Shown here piece after piece: positions 14,724 through 24,177 of a DNA stretch of 64,000 nucleotides; position 1 is the first letter of the stretch, and each line of letters starts with the position of its first letter. The stretch spans positions 5,797,001 through 5,861,000 of the forward strand of contig CM007989.1 of assembly GCA_002189035.1 (NCBI GenBank). Direction: 5' to 3'. Position numbers and translations under genes: made by a program. This DNA is from Utricularia gibba. Its lineage: Eukaryota; Streptophyta; Magnoliopsida; Lamiales; Lentibulariaceae. A model generated the notes under the pieces. The model was given only the letters and a program-made list of their open reading frames with translations, searched no databases and was not told the DNA's origin.

Positions 14724-14726
14724 TAA

Positions 14727-14751
14727 GGCCTCGTTTGTTAGGTGGGTTTAA
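14727..14751 (+). repeat. Left terminal inverted repeat of the Harbinger element
   Basis: Begins GGCCTCGTTTGTTAGG right after the TAA target copy. It pairs with 22631-22655 with one mismatch. Further sub-terminal matches such as aacccttgggt and gggttta blocks follow. Confidence 0.9.
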
Positions 14752-14867
14752 CCCTCTAAACCCTTGGGTAAAAAGTGTTGTATATGTTTGTTGGGGTGGT
14801 TTAGTAAAACACAAGGGTTTGTATTATCCCGAATTAAACCTGCAGCTGCTTGTTTCACAAAACCCAC

Positions 14868-14901
14868 GTGTGAGGTGGGTTTTGAGAAACCCATCTCACA
14901 C
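14868..14901. repeat. Sub-terminal hairpin near the left Harbinger end
   Basis: A 15-base arm GTGTGAGGTGGGTTT is followed by a 4-base loop and its complement with a single G-T type mismatch. It lies 117 bp inside the left end and could be part of a transposase-binding or structural sub-terminal region; that role is inference. Confidence 0.6.
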
Positions 14902-15145
14902 AAATACAACTTGGTCGATAATACCCTTCTACTCCAAAAGCAAATTCGCAACAGTGAATCTGTGTATTTGTTCATCCTCTTCAAAAATAATCTGTTGGGT
15001 TTTTGCAGGTACATGGTGAGTGAATTCGAATTCTGATATTTTGACGAAAATCCATATTTCAATTTAAGCCAAGAGTACTTTTTTTTTGTTTCGCATATGA
15101 TGGAGTCGGTTTTTTTTTTTTCTGAAAACTGCAGTAGGTTGTGCA

Positions 15146-16495
15146 TTGCTTATTGAGGCTGTTGCAATGGTTTCAAAGAAGATTATTTTGGTTGCCCTTG
15201 CTGCGGCACATTGTGTTGGTCAGCATCTATGTATTATGCGAGTTATGATTGTTATAATGTTGCATTTCTGTTGTACACCAACCGATAGGAGAATTCGGTT
15301 CTCATACCGAGAAAAGATACTACGACAAATAGAGCATTTGACTGCCTTATTATCTGATTCAAGGAATGCTTGTCTTGAAAACTTACGATTAAGTGCAGAT
15401 GTCTTCAACAAGTTATGTTATGTTATTCGAAGTAATGGTAGACTAACCACTTCAAGGTATGTCGATGTTCCAGAGCAAGTTGCATTGTTTTTGGGTATTT
15501 TAGTTCATCACAGGAAAACAAGGCAATAGAAATTTGAATTCATGCGAAGCAGCTGGACAGTGTCCAAATATTTCAATGTGGTATTGTCGGCGGTGCTATC
15601 ATTGCACCAAAATTTACTTAAGACACCTATGCCAATTGATGTTTCTGATCTCAATTCTAGCTTCAGATTTTTCGAGGTATGCAAGAAGATTTTTCATCGT
15701 AGTTGTGGATGTGCAACGTGTATTCTGCATTCTGTAACTTTCTGCTCTATTTTTAAGAATTTCTTGGGTGCATTGGATGGTTCATATTTTCAGGTGAAAG
15801 ACAAGAATCAGGATAAATCAAAGTGGAGGAATCGTGTCCACTAATGTGTTAGGAGTGTGTGATGATAAGCTCATGTTCATCTATTTGTTGTTCGGTTGGG
15901 AGGGATCCGTTGTTGATAGCAGGGTGCTGCGAGATGCAGTTTGTCGACAGAAACGCAGAGGGATTTCTAGCACCCTACAGGGGTGCTGTTGATTAACTTT
16001 CATGTATTCCATTTTTTTGTAGGGCATTATTACTTATATGATAATGGCTACACAAACGCAGAGGGATTTCTAGCACCCTACAGGGGTGTTCGGTACCATC
16101 TGAAAGAGTGGGGTGCCGGGTCCATGGCTCCACAGAATGCGAAGGAATATTTCAACATACGGCATGCTTCTGCAAGGAATGTTATTGAGAGGGTATGGGG
16201 TCTAATGAAAATGAGGTGGAGTATTTTACGAAGTTATAGTTTTTATCCTATTAAAACACAAACACGTATCATACTCACATGTGCCCTGCTTCACAATTTT
16301 ATTCGGCGAGAAATGCCAACTGATCCATGGGAAGAGGTCATTCCGGAAGAGTACCAAAATTCGGATTCACAGGAATATGAAGATGATGAACATATTTCCT
16401 CCATAGGAAACTCAGAGGAGTGGACACATTGGCGGGATTCAATGGCTGAGATAATGTTTGCGCAATGGAGAGAGACCACACGAAGAAGGGTATAA
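15146..16495 (+). pseudogene. PIF/Harbinger transposase (DDE_Tnp_4), disrupted
   Basis: An N-terminal helical region (ILRQIEHLTALL, NLRLSADVFNKLC) precedes the DDE domain. The first Asp is in NFLGALDGSYF (15776-15778), the second in YYLYDNGYTNAEGF (16040-16042), and the Glu is in NVIERVWGLMKMRW (16187-16189); the usual HNFIRREM follows. The frame is broken by a TAG at 15527-15529, a one-base shift near 15825 (the motif TNVLGVCDDKLMFIYLLFG is in another frame) and an intron-like insertion at 15985-16022. All three catalytic residues survive. It would cut and paste the element with ORF1, but is not translatable as one protein here. Confidence 0.88.
15951..16088 (+). repeat. 35-bp direct duplication inside the transposase
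   Basis: The same 35 bases (starting aaacgcagagggatttc) occur at 15951-15985 and 16054-16088. The second copy encodes NAEGFLAPYRG in its proper place in the transposase; the first copy is out of place. Between them is a 37-base stretch that begins GT and ends TTTTTTGTAG, like a minimal intron. This looks like a local templated duplication that may have created, or been tolerated through, a small intron. Confidence 0.75.
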
Positions 16496-16830
16496 GGTGT
16501 ACTAATGAATCCTGATATTTTATTGGTTTGGCTTAAAGACATTTTATTTCATTTTCCAATAGTTGATAAGCATTGCGTTGTGTTGTATTCATATTATGCA
16601 AACACATCAGTTATTCCAGACATGATTTGCTTCTTACATTGGGTTATTTCCCACGGTGAACTGCCTTATTTATGCAGGACTGTTGTCACAGCAAATGTGA
16701 TACAGTCACTGGAAACTAGAATTTGCAGTGCCTGGAAATTTATGATAGGATTGAAGGATGCTTCAGGTTTCCATACACTGTTGACTCATACGTCTGGGTG
16801 CAACTATTGCATGCTCTACACTATCTACAT
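16496..16830 (+). other. Harbinger internal sequence downstream of the transposase
   Basis: Probably the transposase 3' untranslated region and spacer. No domain or repeat is recognised until the 46-bp array begins at 16831. Confidence 0.4.
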
Positions 16831-17077
16831 GTACATTGGAAGAATTGCATTCTAGGCACTGTAAATATCTAATCTCGGTGCCTAGATGAAATGTGTTCCT
16901 AGCACCGCAATACACCGTTATCGGTGCCTGGAAGACCAGTGTACCAGGCACCGCAAAAGTTTTGTCTCGGTGTCTACAAGACACCCCTTGTAGGCACTGC
17001 AAAACGCTGCTCTCAGTGTCTGGGTGACATGTGTCCCAGGCACTGCAGAATGCCGCTCTCGGTGTTTGGAAGACACG
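16831..17077 (+). repeat. 46-bp tandem array with a hairpin in each unit
   Basis: Units of exactly 46 bp run head to tail: 16831-16876 (weak), 16877-16922, 16923-16968, 16969-17014, 17015-17060, then a partial unit. Each unit has the plan GGTGCCTGG, a short loop, CCAGGCACC, then GCAAAA and a tail ending CTC. Unit 2 has a perfect 9-bp stem (GGTGCCTGG with CCAGGCACC) and a 12-base loop. Further copies at 17573-17670 stand in the same orientation. The unit is not coding. Confidence 0.85.
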
Positions 17078-17363
17078 TTATTTTAATATTTTTATTAGCG
17101 TTCGATCCTTAGTTATACTTTGGATCGAGCGTTAATATAAATTTAAAATAAACAAATATCCACTCGATTCGAATGAAACCAAAGGATCAAACGCTAATAA
17201 AAATATTAAAACAACGTGTCTTCCACACATCGACGTCCAAGAGCGGCATTCTGCAGTGCCTGGGACGCATGTCTCTCAGACACTGAGAGCAGCGTTTTGT
17301 AGTGCGTACAAGAGGTGTCTTGTAGACACCGAGACAAAACTTTTGCGGTGCTTGGTATACACC
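16933..17363. repeat. Long inverted repeat made from the 46-bp array
   Basis: The left arm (about 16933-17118) and right arm (about 17174-17363) are complementary with scattered mismatches. Each arm includes about three 46-bp units plus an AT-rich core ending in agcgtt(c/t)gatcctt. The spacer is only some 55 bases. If transcribed it would form a stem of about 185 bp, a possible source of small interfering RNAs; that is inference. Confidence 0.8.
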
Positions 17364-17572
17364 GAGACCAAAATTTAAAATTATAAATTACAGAATGTTT
17401 CCTTTATGGGTTTAAATTAGTTCGAGATTACATAACATTTTTTTAATTTTATATATATGAATTTATTTAAAATCACCTACTTTTTTACGTTAATTAAGTT
17501 TGATTTTAATTTTATTAACTATTTTAATACCTAATTAATTGATATATATCATATTCATTTAAATTCAAGTAA
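17364..17572. other. AT-rich spacer within the Harbinger element
   Basis: AT-rich sequence between the inverted repeat and a further run of 46-bp-type units. Nothing is recognised in it. Confidence 0.4.
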
Positions 17573-17690
17573 AAGGCTGCTCTCAAGGTCTGGGAGACAT
17601 GCATCCCAGGCACTCCAGAATGCCGCTCTCGGTGCCTGGAAGACACGCTGTAGACACTGCAACCTTTGAAATAGGTGCCTGGAGCAATCA
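17573..17690 (+). repeat. Additional 46-bp-type units
   Basis: One nearly full unit with the gctgggagacatgcatccca-type plan, then one starting ggtgcctggaagacacg, and a terminal ggtgcctgga. They are detached from the main array by about 200 bp of AT-rich DNA. Confidence 0.7.
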
Positions 17691-17869
17691 CGGGCCGGAA
17701 TGAATATTAGGCCTCGCGTATTTGGGCCTCATAACAAACCCTCCGGCCCAGTCCTCACCCTCCTTCACCACGCACCTAATCGCTGCACACTGGAAAGCAT
17801 GGCACACCGTCCCCACCTTAACTGCATGGTCCCTCCCCCATTTACTTTCCTCTGATCTGTCTATTTCAA

Positions 17870-18172
17870 GAAATGCTTACTTCCAAAAAACTCCAACTTC
17901 GGTTTGCCATCCCAGAGACGTATAATCTATGGGACAAGGCAAGCGATGAGACAATTGACGGTGTGGTTCCACCCAGGGTGGGAGTAATCGGGTTTTCGGT
18001 GTCCACCGAACACTTTCGGTGTGGACTTCGCTTGCCACCACCACCATTCATATGCGAGTTGCTGGCATGTTTGGAGGTCCCATTGTCCCACCTGACACCC
18101 CACTCAATCGCTCATGAGTGTGTGCATGGAGGAACAAATTACTTCGGCCCTACCAGTTTTTTTTTGCCGTAA
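17870..18172 (+). pseudogene. Fragment resembling plant transposon protein (gypsy-type, PF04195-like)
   Basis: A 99-codon open frame contains LRLPPPPFICELLACLEV and PLSHLTPHSIAH. The pattern is like the F-x-P-P-x-P-F-x-x-x-x-L---P-x-x-L-x-P-x-S signature of PF04195-type proteins found in plant retrotransposons; a related signature occurs at 39750-39850. No intact domain follows. The assignment rests on a short motif. Confidence 0.35.
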
Positions 18173-18465
18173 GTGTGTGCATTCGAAACTGAAAAACTAA
18201 TCATTTCTCGCTGAAAGGTAAGCCAGGTATTGCACTTGTGAATTCTATTCGGAGTGGATATGATGCATGGTGGACAAGCTTCATTTGGGTGTGTCCACCA
18301 GAAGACCTCTGAATTCCAACTACTCTCGGCTCCTCCAAGAAAATTGGAAAGGCAAAGGGTAATGTGTGATGTAGTATGGTTGCATGGATAGTGTACTGTG
18401 ATTTATGATATTCGATTATCCATGTTGTAGGATTTGATAAACTATCGAAGCAGGGGCTGGATGCC

Positions 18466-19680
18466 TTGTTGACTATGTTTAGTGAAAAGAGTAAGGCATT
18501 GAGTGACATAGTACCCCCTGTGGTGGACGCTGCCGGTACTCGCCACTTCTGCTGTGGTCAAGGAAGAGTGATACGCGAGCGATCAAAGCCTGACGACGTG
18601 ATCATTGAGGAAGAGATGTCACTAGCATTTGCATCTGATCGACAACAGGATGTAGGGAGCAATGTGGAGGAAGACAACTCGCAACCAACTGCTAGTGTGG
18701 ATGTGGACAGAATCCTGGAAGAGAATGCCCAACTACGTGCAAGGCTAAATTGGTATGAAAGTAGTTGGGCATACACTGGCCCCAGTTCATCGCCCAGGCA
18801 ACAAGTGTGCAAGCTCCTTGTGTTGGACGTCAACAGAGTGCTAGCAGACATTGTCTTCAAAGCCAAGTACCAAAGGTTGCATCGAAAACCAGATGCTGTG
18901 ATATATGGGAGAAATAGTAAGACACCGTAACATTGTCTCATGGCTGTGTCATGTTCAACCAATCCATTTTTTCTTGGTTTGGCAGTCTTCCTCAGGCCCT
19001 TTGCTCATGAGTTCATCGAATGGTGTCTTGCAAACTTTGATGTCGGTATATGGTCTTCAAGGGGCGCGTAAGTCCCACTCCATGAAATCTGCAGAGCATG
19101 TGCTGCTATCTAATACTATAACATCTGTCTATGTTCTATAGTACACAACTACATGACATCACCAAGTGGGTGTTTGGGCCAGATGCATACACCTTGCTGG
19201 CTTTCATATGGGATGCATCGAAGACCACTGAAACGCATGTACGTGTGCATGATAATGGGTCAAAAGCTGCTGTGTTGAAGGAGTTGTCGTGGATTTTGGG
19301 GGAAGATGAAGGCTTCTTGGGTTGGTATGATGCAACCAACACCTTACTTATTGACGACTCCCCGTTCAAGTCCATCAGAAACCCAGTTCAGTCTATCTGC
19401 GATCATATGGTCTGATACGCATGTTTCCTACTGACATTTAGGTCATGGTCTTATTGTGCCACAGCATGACAACGCTGTCTTCCCGACGCCATACCAGTAC
19501 ATGGATGCAAGAGATGCTGCATTAGCTGAGTTTGGAGAAATACGCATCTTCCTTCAAGGTCTACTAGAAGCAAATGATGTACCGAGTTTCGTGAAGCATG
19601 CACGAATTGGATAGCCTCCGTTAGATGCTACTCACCCACTGTGGGATTATTACAAAGTTCTTGCTTTAACATTCATAGCA
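18466..19680 (+). pseudogene. Captured fragment of a HAD/FCP1-homology (NIF-type) phosphatase gene with introns
   Basis: Translated in pieces it matches the plant HAD-superfamily proteins with an FCP1 homology domain. Motif I is VCKLLVLDVNRVLADIVF (about 18820), followed by FLRPFAHEFIEWCLANFDVG and IWSSRGA, then LLAFIWDASKTTETHV, KAAVLKELSWIL, NTLLIDDSPFKSIRNP, VFPTPYQYMDARD, EIRIFLQGLLEANDVPSF and, after a stop, PPLDATHPLWDYYKVL. Introns are still present: exon 1 ends at 18916, exon 2 is 18986-19067, exon 3 starts at 19142 and exon 4 near 19465, with GT-AG borders that keep the frame (the exon 3 donor is uncertain). A TAG at 19612-19614 sits where the family has Gln, a C-to-T change. Motif I has Asn in place of the second Asp and Arg where Gly is usual, so phosphatase activity is doubtful. 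The retained introns show capture of genomic DNA, not of a transcript. Confidence 0.8.
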
Positions 19681-20220
19681 TGTAACAGTAGTTTGAATTT
19701 CGGAACATTATGATGTTACTCACTCTATTTTAGTTATGGGTTTTTCAATATACACTTCATAAATTACAAAAAACTAAACATACGTTAAATATTCTTATAT
19801 GCATATTCATTTAAAATAATACATTAATTTAATATTTTTATTAACATTCGATCCTTAGGTATGATTCGGATCGAACCTTTTTTTATTTTAATATTTTTAT
19901 TATCATTCGATCCTTAGGTATACTTTGGATCGAATGGATATTTATTTATTTTAAATCTTAATTAACGTTCGACCCTTAGGAGCAATTTGGATCAACTATA
20001 CCAAACAAGGGAACACAGGTGTGGTTTATTCATAAACCGTGCCCGTGTACATACCTAGCAGCACCACAAGGGCACACGGGCGTGGTTTATGCAGAAACCA
20101 TTCCCGTGTGCTCTTGTTAGGTATACACGATCCAAATTGCTCCTGAGGGTCGAGCGTTAATATTTATTTAAAATAAATAAATATCCACTCGACTCGAATC
20201 ACACCTAAAGATCAAACGCG
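19681..20220. repeat. Nested palindromes within the Harbinger element
   Basis: From about 19826 there are repeated AT-rich units ending ttcgatccttaggtat followed by ggatcgaa. Next, GTTCGACCCTTAGGAGC (about 19973) is matched by its near complement at about 20126-20156. Inside that lies a second hairpin, acaagggcacacggg with cccgtgtgctcttgt, around a loop containing tggtttatgcagaaacca. It is a palindrome within a palindrome. No coding content. Confidence 0.65.
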
Positions 20221-20246
20221 ACTTACATGCACTCAGTTGGTGCATT

Positions 20247-20790
20247 GATGCTAGGCACCGTAAGAGCATATTTGTGGTGTTTGAAAAGATATAATGCATG
20301 TCTTCGAAGAGCAATCCAGTACAGTCAATACTTAACACCTAACACGCGAGAGGTTGGGCTGAGTGCCACACACATGCAGTTTACTAGCGCATCGATGCCA
20401 GGCACCGCAAGAGCATATTCGCGGTGCCTTAAAAGATATGATGCATGTCTTCGAAGGGCAATCTAGTGCAGTCAATACTTAACACCGAACACGCGAGAGG
20501 TTGGGCTGAGTGCCACACACATGCAGTTTACTAACGCATCGATGCCAGGCACCACAAGAGCATATTCACGGTGCCTGAAAAGATAGGATGCATGTCTTCG
20601 AAGGGCAATCTAGTGCAGTCAATACTTCACACCTAATACTTGAGAGGTCGGGCTGAGTGCCACACACATGCAGTTTACTAGCGTATCGATGCCAGGCACC
20701 GCAAGAGCATATTTGCGGTGCCTGAAAAGATAGGATGCATGATAGGCACTGCAACCTTTATTTGCGGTGCCTAGAAAGGGACGAGTCCTA
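20247..20790 (+). repeat. 147-bp tandem repeat array
   Basis: The landmark gatgc(c/t)aggcacc occurs at 20247, 20394, 20541 and 20688, an exact 147-bp period with three full units and a partial fourth. Each unit contains a hairpin whose arms are CAGGCACCGC and GCGGTGCCTG around a loop of about 12 bases, then a conserved non-hairpin part (atgcatgtcttcgaa, gagaggttgggctgagtgcc). The first unit is the most diverged. Open frames here arise from the repeat and are not genes. Confidence 0.88.
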
Positions 20791-20973
20791 CTGTTCTGCT
20801 TTCTATAGGTTACAGGGGCTTGATAAATATATTTGGTTACACAAACTAAAATCAGATAGCAGCTACTCATGGAAAACATGTACAGCGTAATATTGTCATG
20901 CAAAGCAAAATGATCGTCATGATACATGGACATCATAAATGGATATGATCAAAACAACAAAGGAAAAACAACA

Positions 20974-22055
20974 TCATAGACCTCTCACAATCCCATCCAC
21001 CATAACCTCACGTTCTGCACTATTGCTGTCCAGAAAAAGCTGTAGCTTTATGGGGTTACTCAAGATGACTTCAGTCACTCCTAGACGCTGCATTGTAGTT
21101 AATTGCAATGGCATCCCTCTGATGATGTCTGCAGCAGCATTTCGACGTTCCCGTAGGTCATTGTTTTCAGCAGTAAGTATTTCTCCCAGTTGTGCGATGG
21201 CATCATTTGTTCGCTTACTCATTTCTTTCAACTCCTCCACCAAGCTATCAAGTTCTGGACCTTGCCTCCTCTTCTTCTTCCTAGGTTCATCACCACTGGT
21301 TGGTGTAGTGTGATTACCTGTGCGACCTCCAGGAGTCCCTCCTAATGAGGGATACTCTTCATATGTAGAGGATGCATCATGTGATCTTTGTTCACCATTT
21401 TTTTCCGAGTCAACCTCCACTTCAGGATACTCAAGAAGATGCACTGGTTGTTCCACATCGGCCATAGAGTCATCAGTCTGCTGTGTTGCATCAGCAGCAT
21501 CAGGGACACATTCTGCAAATTCTCAAGTGGCTCTATCTTTTCCAAAGATGATGCACCAATCTGGATAGTAAGGCCAACGCCTAAACCACAACAAATTGTA
21601 CACCTTCTCATTGTGCTACACATGTAATCCATAAGTGTACATTAATAATCTCACAGGAACTACCTACTACATATACATTAGAACAACAATACCTGTTTGA
21701 ACTCCACCCACAAATCCTCACTAGCATCTACCATGTTTGTTGAGTTATCATACCCGGTACTTGACTTGTTGAGAAAGTCAGATAGGGCATTGTAATCTTT
21801 TTTCCAGCTATGAATCTTTGATTGCATGTGGGGAGTGCCTCTGATATCTGAACCGGGACACAATTTGAGGAACGCCTCCTCTAGTGCTTGAAGATAATTA
21901 CCTTTGAATCCATTCTCTGCTTTCCACCCACCTTGAATGATATCCTTTAGAGCGTGGATCAGAAAGCACTCTTCATCAGGTTTCCACTGTCTTTTGGTCT
22001 TAATGTTATCACCACTTCTCACACGTTTTGTTGTAGGCACGTTTGCTCCAACCAT
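20974..22055 (-). pseudogene. Harbinger ORF1 (Myb/SANT-like DNA-binding protein), one stop
   Basis: Exon 1 (22055 down to 21693) starts MVGANVPTTKRVRSG and encodes a Myb/SANT-like region: RQWKPDEECFLIHALKDII, GWKAENGFKGNYLQALEE, SKIHSWKKDYNALSDFL. A donor gtattg and an acceptor ending gagaag join it in frame to exon 2 (21603 down to 20974), which carries WPYYPDWCIIFGKDRAT and EFAECVPDAADA. A basic stretch RKKKRRQGPE and a C-terminal helical region (VEELKEMSKRTNDAIAQLGE) follow. Family members read GKDRATGEFAE; here Gly is replaced by TGA at 21523-21525. ORF1 helps the transposase bind the element ends. The pairing with the transposase on the other strand is normal for the superfamily. Confidence 0.85.
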
Positions 22056-22630
22056 TTCTGCAACTAACACATAAGTGCACAACCCATGACATAACCACAA
22101 TGCATGTGTAGCTCAATATAGCACAAGAAGTATAATAACATTATATGGGTTTCAGGGGCACAATTCACAGCCATATTACTCAAAAAACATCACACACACT
22201 AACACCCAGTCGCTCAATCCACGTGGTTAAGGTTATTCAACCGGCAAATGAAATAAACGCCTCAAATTCGAGAAAAAAATACCTGGTGCATCACCCAATA
22301 CCCAATTTTTCGGTAGATCAGACTTGCTCCCAGAGTTGCATGAGCCGAAGATCCATGCACATCGTAACTTGAGGGTTTCGAATTCCCCAATCTGAATCTC
22401 ACGTTTCTACATGTGGGGTCAAAATAGGATAATAAGATATTATATTATATATAAAGGGTATATTAGGAAATTCATATTTTCTAGTATTGAGAACCTATGC
22501 ATAAACCCTTCTAACAAACATACAAAATTGATAATCCCATATTATTGAACCCTATCTACCAAACACATACTTCATTCTAAACCATTATTTATGGAATACA
22601 ATAAACTAAAATAATCTAAACCCTTTTAAT
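22056..22630. other. Right sub-terminal region of the Harbinger element
   Basis: Holds the ORF1 upstream region and sub-terminal sequence rich in taaaccc and gggttta. No other coding content. Confidence 0.5.
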
Positions 22631-22655
22631 TTAAACCCACCTAACAAATGAGGCC
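22631..22655 (-). repeat. Right terminal inverted repeat of the Harbinger element
   Basis: The complement of the left end with one mismatch, followed directly by the second TAA target copy at 22656-22658. Confidence 0.9.
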
Positions 22656-22658
22656 TAA

Positions 22659-24177
22659 GAGTAATGAATTTTCAATTACATTTCTTTAAAATATTGTTAA
22701 ATTAAAAACACTTGAATGAATATTTTAAAACTGATATAAATAAATTATTTAATACTTTAATTTATATGTTTGGTATTTATAAACATTGAAAAATATTAAT
22801 TAAATATAATTCTCAAAAATATGTTTGTTATTTATTATTCAAATTCATTTCATTGAATTATTTTATTAAACCAATGAATATGTGATATTTTCTTCATAAA
22901 GTCGTTTGAACATTACATGTAATTTGCATCAAGTGAGTTTTTTTAAGAGCATATCTTTTTATTTTAAATTTGCATTATTCATAGTTTTATCCTTATGTGT
23001 TATTTAAATTAAATGCCTTTTTTATTTTAAATTTATATAAGTGTTATTTGGATCGAGTATCTATTTTTTTATTTTAAATTTATATTATGCATCATCCGAA
23101 AAAATGTTAGTTACATTGAGTATCTATTTTTTATTTTAAATTTATATTATGCATCACCCGATGTTATAGTATTATTTAGATCGAATGACTCTTTTATTTA
23201 TTTTAAATTTGTATTATATATCATTTGATCTTTAAATATTATTTAGATTGATTGCTTATTTTTTTATTTTAAATTTGTGTTATATGAGATTTTTTTCAAG
23301 TAGTATTGAAATTTTTTATCTCCCATGGAATGAATAAAATAAAAGAATAGTTTAAATTAAAAATATATATGATAAAAAATAATTCAAAAAATATATAGAT
23401 ATTGTGTTAGCTATTTTACTACAAAATTCATTTGAATTTGAATTTTACTATAGGCATTTAATGTTTTATTTTTTGAATGCTTTAACCTCAATTGACTTAT
23501 ACATTCATTAATATCATTTCTAATTTTCTTATATATATGTGCCCCATTTTTCAATCTTTTTTTGAATAATGAATCAGATTTTTTAGACAATATTTATCAC
23601 ATAGGATTCTCAAGTAATAAAAAATCATTCGTTTTCCTAAAAAATTGACTCAAATACATCATTTTTTATTTTTTCAATGCCGTAGCCTCAATTGGCTTAT
23701 ACATTGATAAATGCAATCATTTATTTCTTTTCCTAAAAAAATCATATTTGGTTATCATCCATAATAAAAAAAAAAGAAAGATTAAAATACTTTTACTAAG
23801 ATATGAAAAACCTCACATTGATAATTATAGAAAAAAAAAGCAAAAAGAAAAAAGTTGCTCATATGTGAATGGAAATATATTGCATAAAAAAATAATCTAA
23901 AATACATTGTAAATCAAATAAAAAGGATGAGTATCAATGTCAACATGTTCAATCAAAACTGAAAAAATAAGTATTTTTGTTTTCAAAATATCTTATATTT
24001 TCTCAAAATACCTTTTAAAGTGAAAAAATTTTACATAAATAAATAGAAAACATCAAAAATGAATTGGTGATACTATGAAAAGTGGGAATGATAGTGAACT
24101 ATAGGCATTTGTCCAAAAAAATGTCTATTATAGTAATCTTCAACGTCTTGCATCAATCATAACCTCTCAAATGTATT
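22659..24177. other. AT-rich intergenic with diverged tandem repeats
   Basis: Very AT-rich. Between about 22960 and 23290 a diverged unit of roughly 60-70 bp recurs five or six times: tttattttaaattt-(a/g)tatta, then a short variable part and tta-(g/t)atcga-t. The same ttattttaaat---ggatcga style occurs inside the neighbouring Harbinger element near 19850-20000. No gene is seen. Confidence 0.5.

Follow-up and report, generated by a model that had tools for sequence, protein, structure and literature searches.

A PIF/Harbinger element spans positions 14727-22655 of a 64-kb stretch of the Utricularia gibba genome (the window). The element is bounded by terminal inverted repeats (TIRs) of 25 bp with one mismatch, a pairing expected about 2e-6 times by chance, and by TAA target site duplications (TSDs). 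A DDE transposase gene and open reading frame 1 (ORF1), which encodes a Myb/SANT protein, are convergent, tail to tail on opposite strands (Table 1). Between them lies a core (16.85-20.79 kb) of repeat arrays and a third gene with five exons, here called T28-NIF. We consider it likely that the window element is a decayed three-gene PIF/Harbinger and that T28-NIF is an old accessory gene, which the DNA transposons of this genome carry and exchange.

The initial annotation had described the TIRs with one mismatch, the TAA duplications, and the two family genes on opposite strands. The ends were recovered at 14724-14751 and 22631-22658, and both genes gave Pfam matches above cut-off. The transposase matches DDE_Tnp_4 (PF13359; 15971-16495, plus strand, E 3.6e-13, 49.9 bits against a cut-off of 24.8) and ORF1 matches Myb_DNA-bind_3 (PF12776; 21678-22112, minus strand, E 8.5e-11, 43.1 bits against 23.6). 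The DDE_Tnp_4-type transposase, the Myb/SANT ORF1, the 3-bp TAA/TTA duplication and the short TIRs are all those of a PIF/Harbinger. In these respects the element resembles canonical plant PIF/Pong-like Harbingers, also in the form of the TIRs, but it differs from them in having a third gene. The window copy is dead, with stops or frameshifts in the DDE and third genes. The DDE gene has an in-frame stop near 15527, at the end of TPase1, and a 44-bp duplication (15942-15985/16045-16088). Pack-TYPE elements are non-autonomous and lack their own transposase, whereas this family has both DDE and ORF1, decayed in the window copy.

Table 1. Coordinates of the features of the Harbinger element in the window
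Feature	Position	Strand	Basis or remark
Left TSD, TAA	14724..14726		
Left TIR, GGCCTCGTTTGTTAGGTGGGTTTAA	14727..14751	+	Conserved in about 17 other copies
PIF/Harbinger DDE transposase gene, decayed	15149..16495	+	DDE_Tnp_4 match
Left hairpin array, GGCACCGCAA/TTGCGGTGCC half-sites, 46-bp spacing	16846..17080		
CGATCCTTAGG-type fold-back repeat, unrelated dispersed repeat	17059..17233		Same repeat flanks the C505 element
Inverted copy of left hairpin array	17237..17376		93% complementary
Additional hairpin-array unit	17571..17683		Immediately 5' of third gene
Third gene, exon 1: Transposase_28 (PF04195)	17873..18357	+	Frame interrupted near 18115-18160
Third gene, exon 2: coiled segment and HAD motif I (LDVNRVLAD)	18430..18912	+	
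Third gene, exon 3: HAD motif II region (IWSSRG)	18985..19065	+	
Third gene, exon 4: HAD motif III/IV region (LKEL, LLIDDSPFKS)	19146..19388	+	
Third gene, exon 5: NIF-like domain C-terminus	19468..19665	+	In-frame stop
CGATCCTTAGG 59-bp array and inverted repeat	19824..20216		
Right hairpin array, 147-bp unit x 3.4	20242..20775		Each unit AGGCACCGCAA..GCAT..TTGCGGTGCCT
Harbinger ORF1 (Myb/SANT DNA-binding protein)	20974..22112	-	Two open pieces, 22112-21678 and 21522-20974
Right TIR	22631..22655	-	Pairs with left TIR
Right TSD, TAA	22656..22658		

The third gene had been taken for a captured host gene. It is instead a two-domain gene, in which exon 1 matches Transposase_28, a plant transposon-associated domain, and the C-terminus is NIF phosphatase-like. 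Its predicted product comprises the Transposase_28 domain, a coiled segment and an NIF/FCP1-like HAD domain. The Transposase_28 (T28) match scores 26.3 bits against a cut-off of 26.2 in the window and 33.0 bits in a relative (L079), and the NIF (PF03031) match after exon 1 scores 42.5 bits against 21.8. The exon limits were drawn from protein alignments rather than transcripts, and the breaks fall at corresponding positions in the relatives examined. HAD motifs II-IV are present, while motif I reads DxNG and not the catalytic DxDx. The nucleophile Asp is kept in nearly all copies and the second Asp is replaced by Asn.

The direct and inverted repeats of the core bear out the structured satellite arrays noted earlier. 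In the left hairpin array the 46-bp-spaced units begin at 16863, and the inverted pair (93%) joins 16939-17062 with 17237-17360. The 59-bp array covers 19824-19980, followed by an inverted pair at 19906-20048/20074-20216. The right array, measured at 20242-20741, varies in number among copies of the element (147-bp unit x 3.4, 2.4, 2.0 or not detected), and its period varies too. Palindromic CTAGGCACYG ends at 16.85 and 20.76 kb had suggested a nested CACTA or Mutator element. This reading was dropped, as the palindromic ends are array units and reading the ends revealed no direct duplication.

Genomic copies and Harbinger lineages with the third gene

Genome searches scored the best candidates in an assembly that may be incomplete, so that counts are those among the matches listed, and copy maps were stitched from separate matched loci. 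The left end gave 28 matches, about 19 of which are copies of the element end. The core gene gave 17, with flanking parts collinear with it, and most element copies carry the core. Ten copies retain both ends. In eight of them the flanks are unrelated and show duplications of TAA, TTA or TTAA (TTAA in two of the eight); of the remaining two, copy F reads TTA/TAA and copy I lacks a duplication. Copies A, E, H, N and O combine the gene with both ends and a duplication, and B and K are derivatives with internal deletions. The interior is shared by many copies that lie in different flanks and have TAA/TTA duplications, so that the core moves together with the Harbinger, as the initial annotation had supposed. 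One locus (C4:2327.6-2334 kb) was considered as an empty form that preceded capture. It lacks T28-NIF, yet the first hairpin-like unit is still present together with another 3.3 kb of sequence, which indicates loss or replacement and not a clean empty site.

Two further loci of the family were observed. A 1.9-kb internal deletion derivative with intact ends and a TAA duplication lies at C505:579010-580947 and is a possible founder of a non-autonomous family. The 5' half of the Harbinger occurs twice with identical scores (C304:871530-872272 and C304:965501-966757), about 95 kb apart and in opposite orientation, possibly by segmental duplication.

Protein searches of the whole genome for DDE, ORF1, NIF and T28, with matches clustered by position, recovered at least 68 loci where T28 and NIF occur together. 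The order DDE(+) T28(+) NIF(+) ORF1(-) was found in 22 simple clusters and four times inside composite clusters. Twelve of the 22 simple clusters belong to diverged lineages and are only about 50-70% alike in protein. A DDE gene lies within 2.5 kb of 41 of 148 T28/NIF (T/N) clusters, against 1.8 expected from shifted positions, and in 40 of these 41 it is upstream on the same strand. One diverged Harbinger on contig C505 was read whole. It is about 6.2 kb long, has the TIR GGGYGCGTTTGGTTRCTGGGTTTAG, TAA on both sides and all three genes, and no hairpin arrays were seen in it. DDE and ORF1 occur without the third gene at 27 loci, where the ORF1s resemble that of the window less (judged by eye from search identities).

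Selection was estimated by the ratio of nonsynonymous to synonymous substitution rates (dN/dS) with the NG86 method. In the window lineage the median is 0.50 for the third gene, 0.50 for DDE and 0.45 for ORF1. Older third-gene pairs gave 0.26-0.37, the far Harbingers 0.34-0.67, and comparisons of L086 with hAT type-1 genes 0.27-0.42. Very young pairs are near 1, the expectation for dead copies. The third gene is under purifying selection, with constraint equal to that on DDE and ORF1, and T28-NIF belongs to the regular gene set of at least three Harbinger lineages, as their third gene. The suggestion of an unusual, single captured host gene was not supported by these comparisons, since several diverged Harbinger lineages have the same gene, it is under purifying selection, and hAT elements carry it as well.

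T28-NIF in hAT transposons

A second superfamily of DNA transposons carries T28-NIF. Harbinger copy R (contig C451) is interrupted by a 4,898-bp hAT insertion (C451:4971184-4976081) with the TIR TAGAGCTGGGCACG and an 8-bp duplication GTTACACC/GTTACATC, identical at seven of eight positions. The insertion holds a T28-NIF gene, a hairpin array and fragments of a hAT transposase. It is thus a T28-NIF carrier nested in another T28-NIF carrier, within about 100 bp of the hairpin array of the Harbinger. A second element, from C402:1730681 onward, shares this left TIR; it contains T28-NIF with a 56-bp hairpin array, and a hAT transposase is encoded on the opposite strand. Matches to hAT-like_RNase-H (PF14372) and Dimer_Tnp_hAT (PF05699) of Pfam were obtained for the hAT carriers. 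The full set of hAT hallmarks (transposase, 8-bp TSD and TIRs) was found in type 2 carriers only, and the window element is not a hAT. Across the genome a hAT transposase lies within 2.5 kb of 17 T/N clusters against 1.7 expected. In 12 of the 17, against 0.4 expected, it is upstream on the same strand, the type 1 arrangement.

The unrooted tree of 28 third-gene proteins, based on a query-anchored alignment, places the window lineage and the hAT type-2 genes on one side of a branch (support 100/97) and hAT type 1 with the other Harbingers on the opposite side. A single clade of all hAT genes was rejected by the approximately unbiased (AU) test (p-AU 0.03). The array core AGGCACCGCAANNGCATNTTTGCGGTGCCT is common to the sister groups, the window lineage and hAT type 2. 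The array also adjoins hAT type-2 TIRs or transposases without a T28-NIF match nearby (C1:5611838, C510:266606, C3:5030796, C1:4750133 and C451:5068975). Because sister genes share GGCACCGCAA arrays, and these also stand beside gene-free hAT ends, the gene and array probably passed as a module between superfamilies, from hAT to the ancestor of the Harbinger lineage in the window. The transfer would have taken place at the DNA level, by nesting and then recombination through shared arrays. Copy R, where an array-bearing hAT adjoins the Harbinger's own array, would illustrate a possible route of exchange.

Proposed role, known systems and alternative readings

Sharing across superfamilies has its closest precedent in the TET/JBP dioxygenase genes of fungi, which hAT and Harbinger elements and further DNA transposons carry (Kojima 2025, PMC12730594). 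There too one accessory enzyme gene has passed among superfamilies including hAT and Harbinger, with gene order fixed in some lineages. The hosts are fungi, however, and the enzyme acts in DNA demethylation, in contrast to a phosphatase-like protein in a plant; no shared hairpin arrays are described in the text consulted. HarbingerS, an oomycete SET-domain Harbinger as cited in PMC12730594, is likewise a Harbinger clade equipped with an additional enzyme gene, but the enzyme is a SET methyltransferase and the host an oomycete. Pack-TYPE elements, including Pack-PIF and Pack-hAT (PMC8903248), also place gene-derived sequence between the TIRs of Harbinger and hAT. They are non-autonomous fragments without transposase, whereas here a whole, selected third gene stands beside both Harbinger genes.

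Among plants the VANDAL elements offer a parallel for a DNA transposon with a non-transposase gene. Their VANC proteins bind rapidly changing tandem repeats within the element's non-coding DNA and take away methylation (PMC5735166). The KIU forms are VANC-Ulp1 fusions with a captured Ulp1 domain (PMC13317346), that is, a transposon protein joined to a captured host enzyme domain. T28-NIF similarly fuses a transposon-type N-terminus to a host-type enzyme domain beside variable arrays, and the Harbinger of the window has such fast-changing tandem repeats in its non-coding parts, as in the VANC type. The differences are that VANDAL belongs to the MULE superfamily with other domains, and that anti-silencing and repeat binding by VANC were demonstrated experimentally, while for T28-NIF they are proposals. 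Our literature search, with most subscription papers outside its reach, found no description of an NIF/FCP1-type gene in plant Harbinger or hAT elements.

By analogy with these systems, the product of the third gene is most likely a VANC-like accessory factor. It might aid the element as a trans-acting factor, by lifting silencing or helping expression. The T28 and coiled part would give specificity, with the hairpin arrays as candidate sites. The HAD domain, with DxN for DxD, would act on a host or transposon phosphoprotein or serve as a binding module. It is possible, though we offer it as a doubtful extension, that plant hAT and Harbinger elements trade a dedicated T28-NIF factor that recognises GGCACCGCAA arrays and relieves silencing or promotes transposition. 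If so, T28-NIF would be a plant counterpart of the transposon-borne TET of fungi and of VANC, one that crosses superfamilies and has a phosphatase-like domain. Accessory genes common to several superfamilies suggest that the shared problem is host defence and not the chemistry of transposition. A conserved third gene shared with hAT would provide a protein and a candidate DNA target, the hairpin arrays, for studies of how silencing is counteracted. There is also a warning for annotation: of the apparent NIF phosphatase genes in a genome of this kind, dozens belong to transposons.

Other origins of the core have to be weighed. A recent capture of the Pack type, in which an autonomous Harbinger acquired satellite DNA and an NIF gene of the host on a single occasion and then amplified with them as passive baggage, is highly improbable, and in its simple form is largely refuted. 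The content of the core is non-Harbinger and the window lineage resembles a single expansion; however, the gene has the same position across Harbinger lineages that share only about 47-50% identity in it, and its selection matches that on DDE and ORF1, where passive baggage is expected near a dN/dS of 1. It is also unlikely that the core is a separate hAT that inserted into an ancestral Harbinger and simply travels with it. The initial annotation had held that its view would be refuted by a core found elsewhere with its own ends, and this was observed only for a relative, a 60%-identical gene with the same hairpin array inside hAT ends, in one case nested in Harbinger copy R. The window itself gave no such picture. 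The search of its core for hAT TIRs was empty, which rules out a nested hAT there, the cores of near copies gave no hAT transposase match, and other Harbinger lineages have the gene without arrays.

A multi-copy host family of T28-NIF genes, repeatedly captured by several kinds of transposons through abundance or hot spots, would account for the many two-domain loci, 19 of which have no DDE, ORF1 or hAT transposase detected nearby among the matches listed (for example C451:4021638-4023415 and C142:568203-569920). This is quite unlikely, given that order, orientation and spacing are fixed within each transposon type and that the genes of each transposon lineage form one clade.

Several points nevertheless count against an accessory gene that is carried and exchanged by DNA transposons. 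The 19 loci just described may be host genes, decayed elements or a further, third type of carrier. The AU rejection of hAT monophyly is modest, the direction of transfer was drawn from the occurrence of arrays rather than from a rooted tree, and the type-1 hAT association comes from position and spacing, with no type-1 element bounded by TIR and TSD. The function of the protein is proposed by analogy, not experiment. Phosphatase activity may be absent because motif I is DxN, and the structure prediction of the T28 exon has a mean predicted local distance difference test (pLDDT) score of only 51.5, below confident modelling.

Dispersed repeats in and around the element

Copies of the CGATCCTTAGGTAT / ACACGGGCGTGGTTTATGCATAAACC fold-back repeat are scattered through the genome, among them those in the window (17075-17233 and 19824-20216) and at C505:222750-222930. 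The C505 Harbinger directly adjoins this repeat, whose CCTAAGG offers a TAA target. Copies of the hairpin array were also found at C451:5844784, C413:3180420, C451:3400212, C402:1934626 and C507:533379, where neither a transposase nor T28-NIF nor a hAT end was detected in the vicinity. Just beyond the right end of the element, a 67-bp tandem array (3.7 copies) with GATCGAATGC occupies positions 23044-23285 of the window and resembles the CGATCC repeats inside the element.

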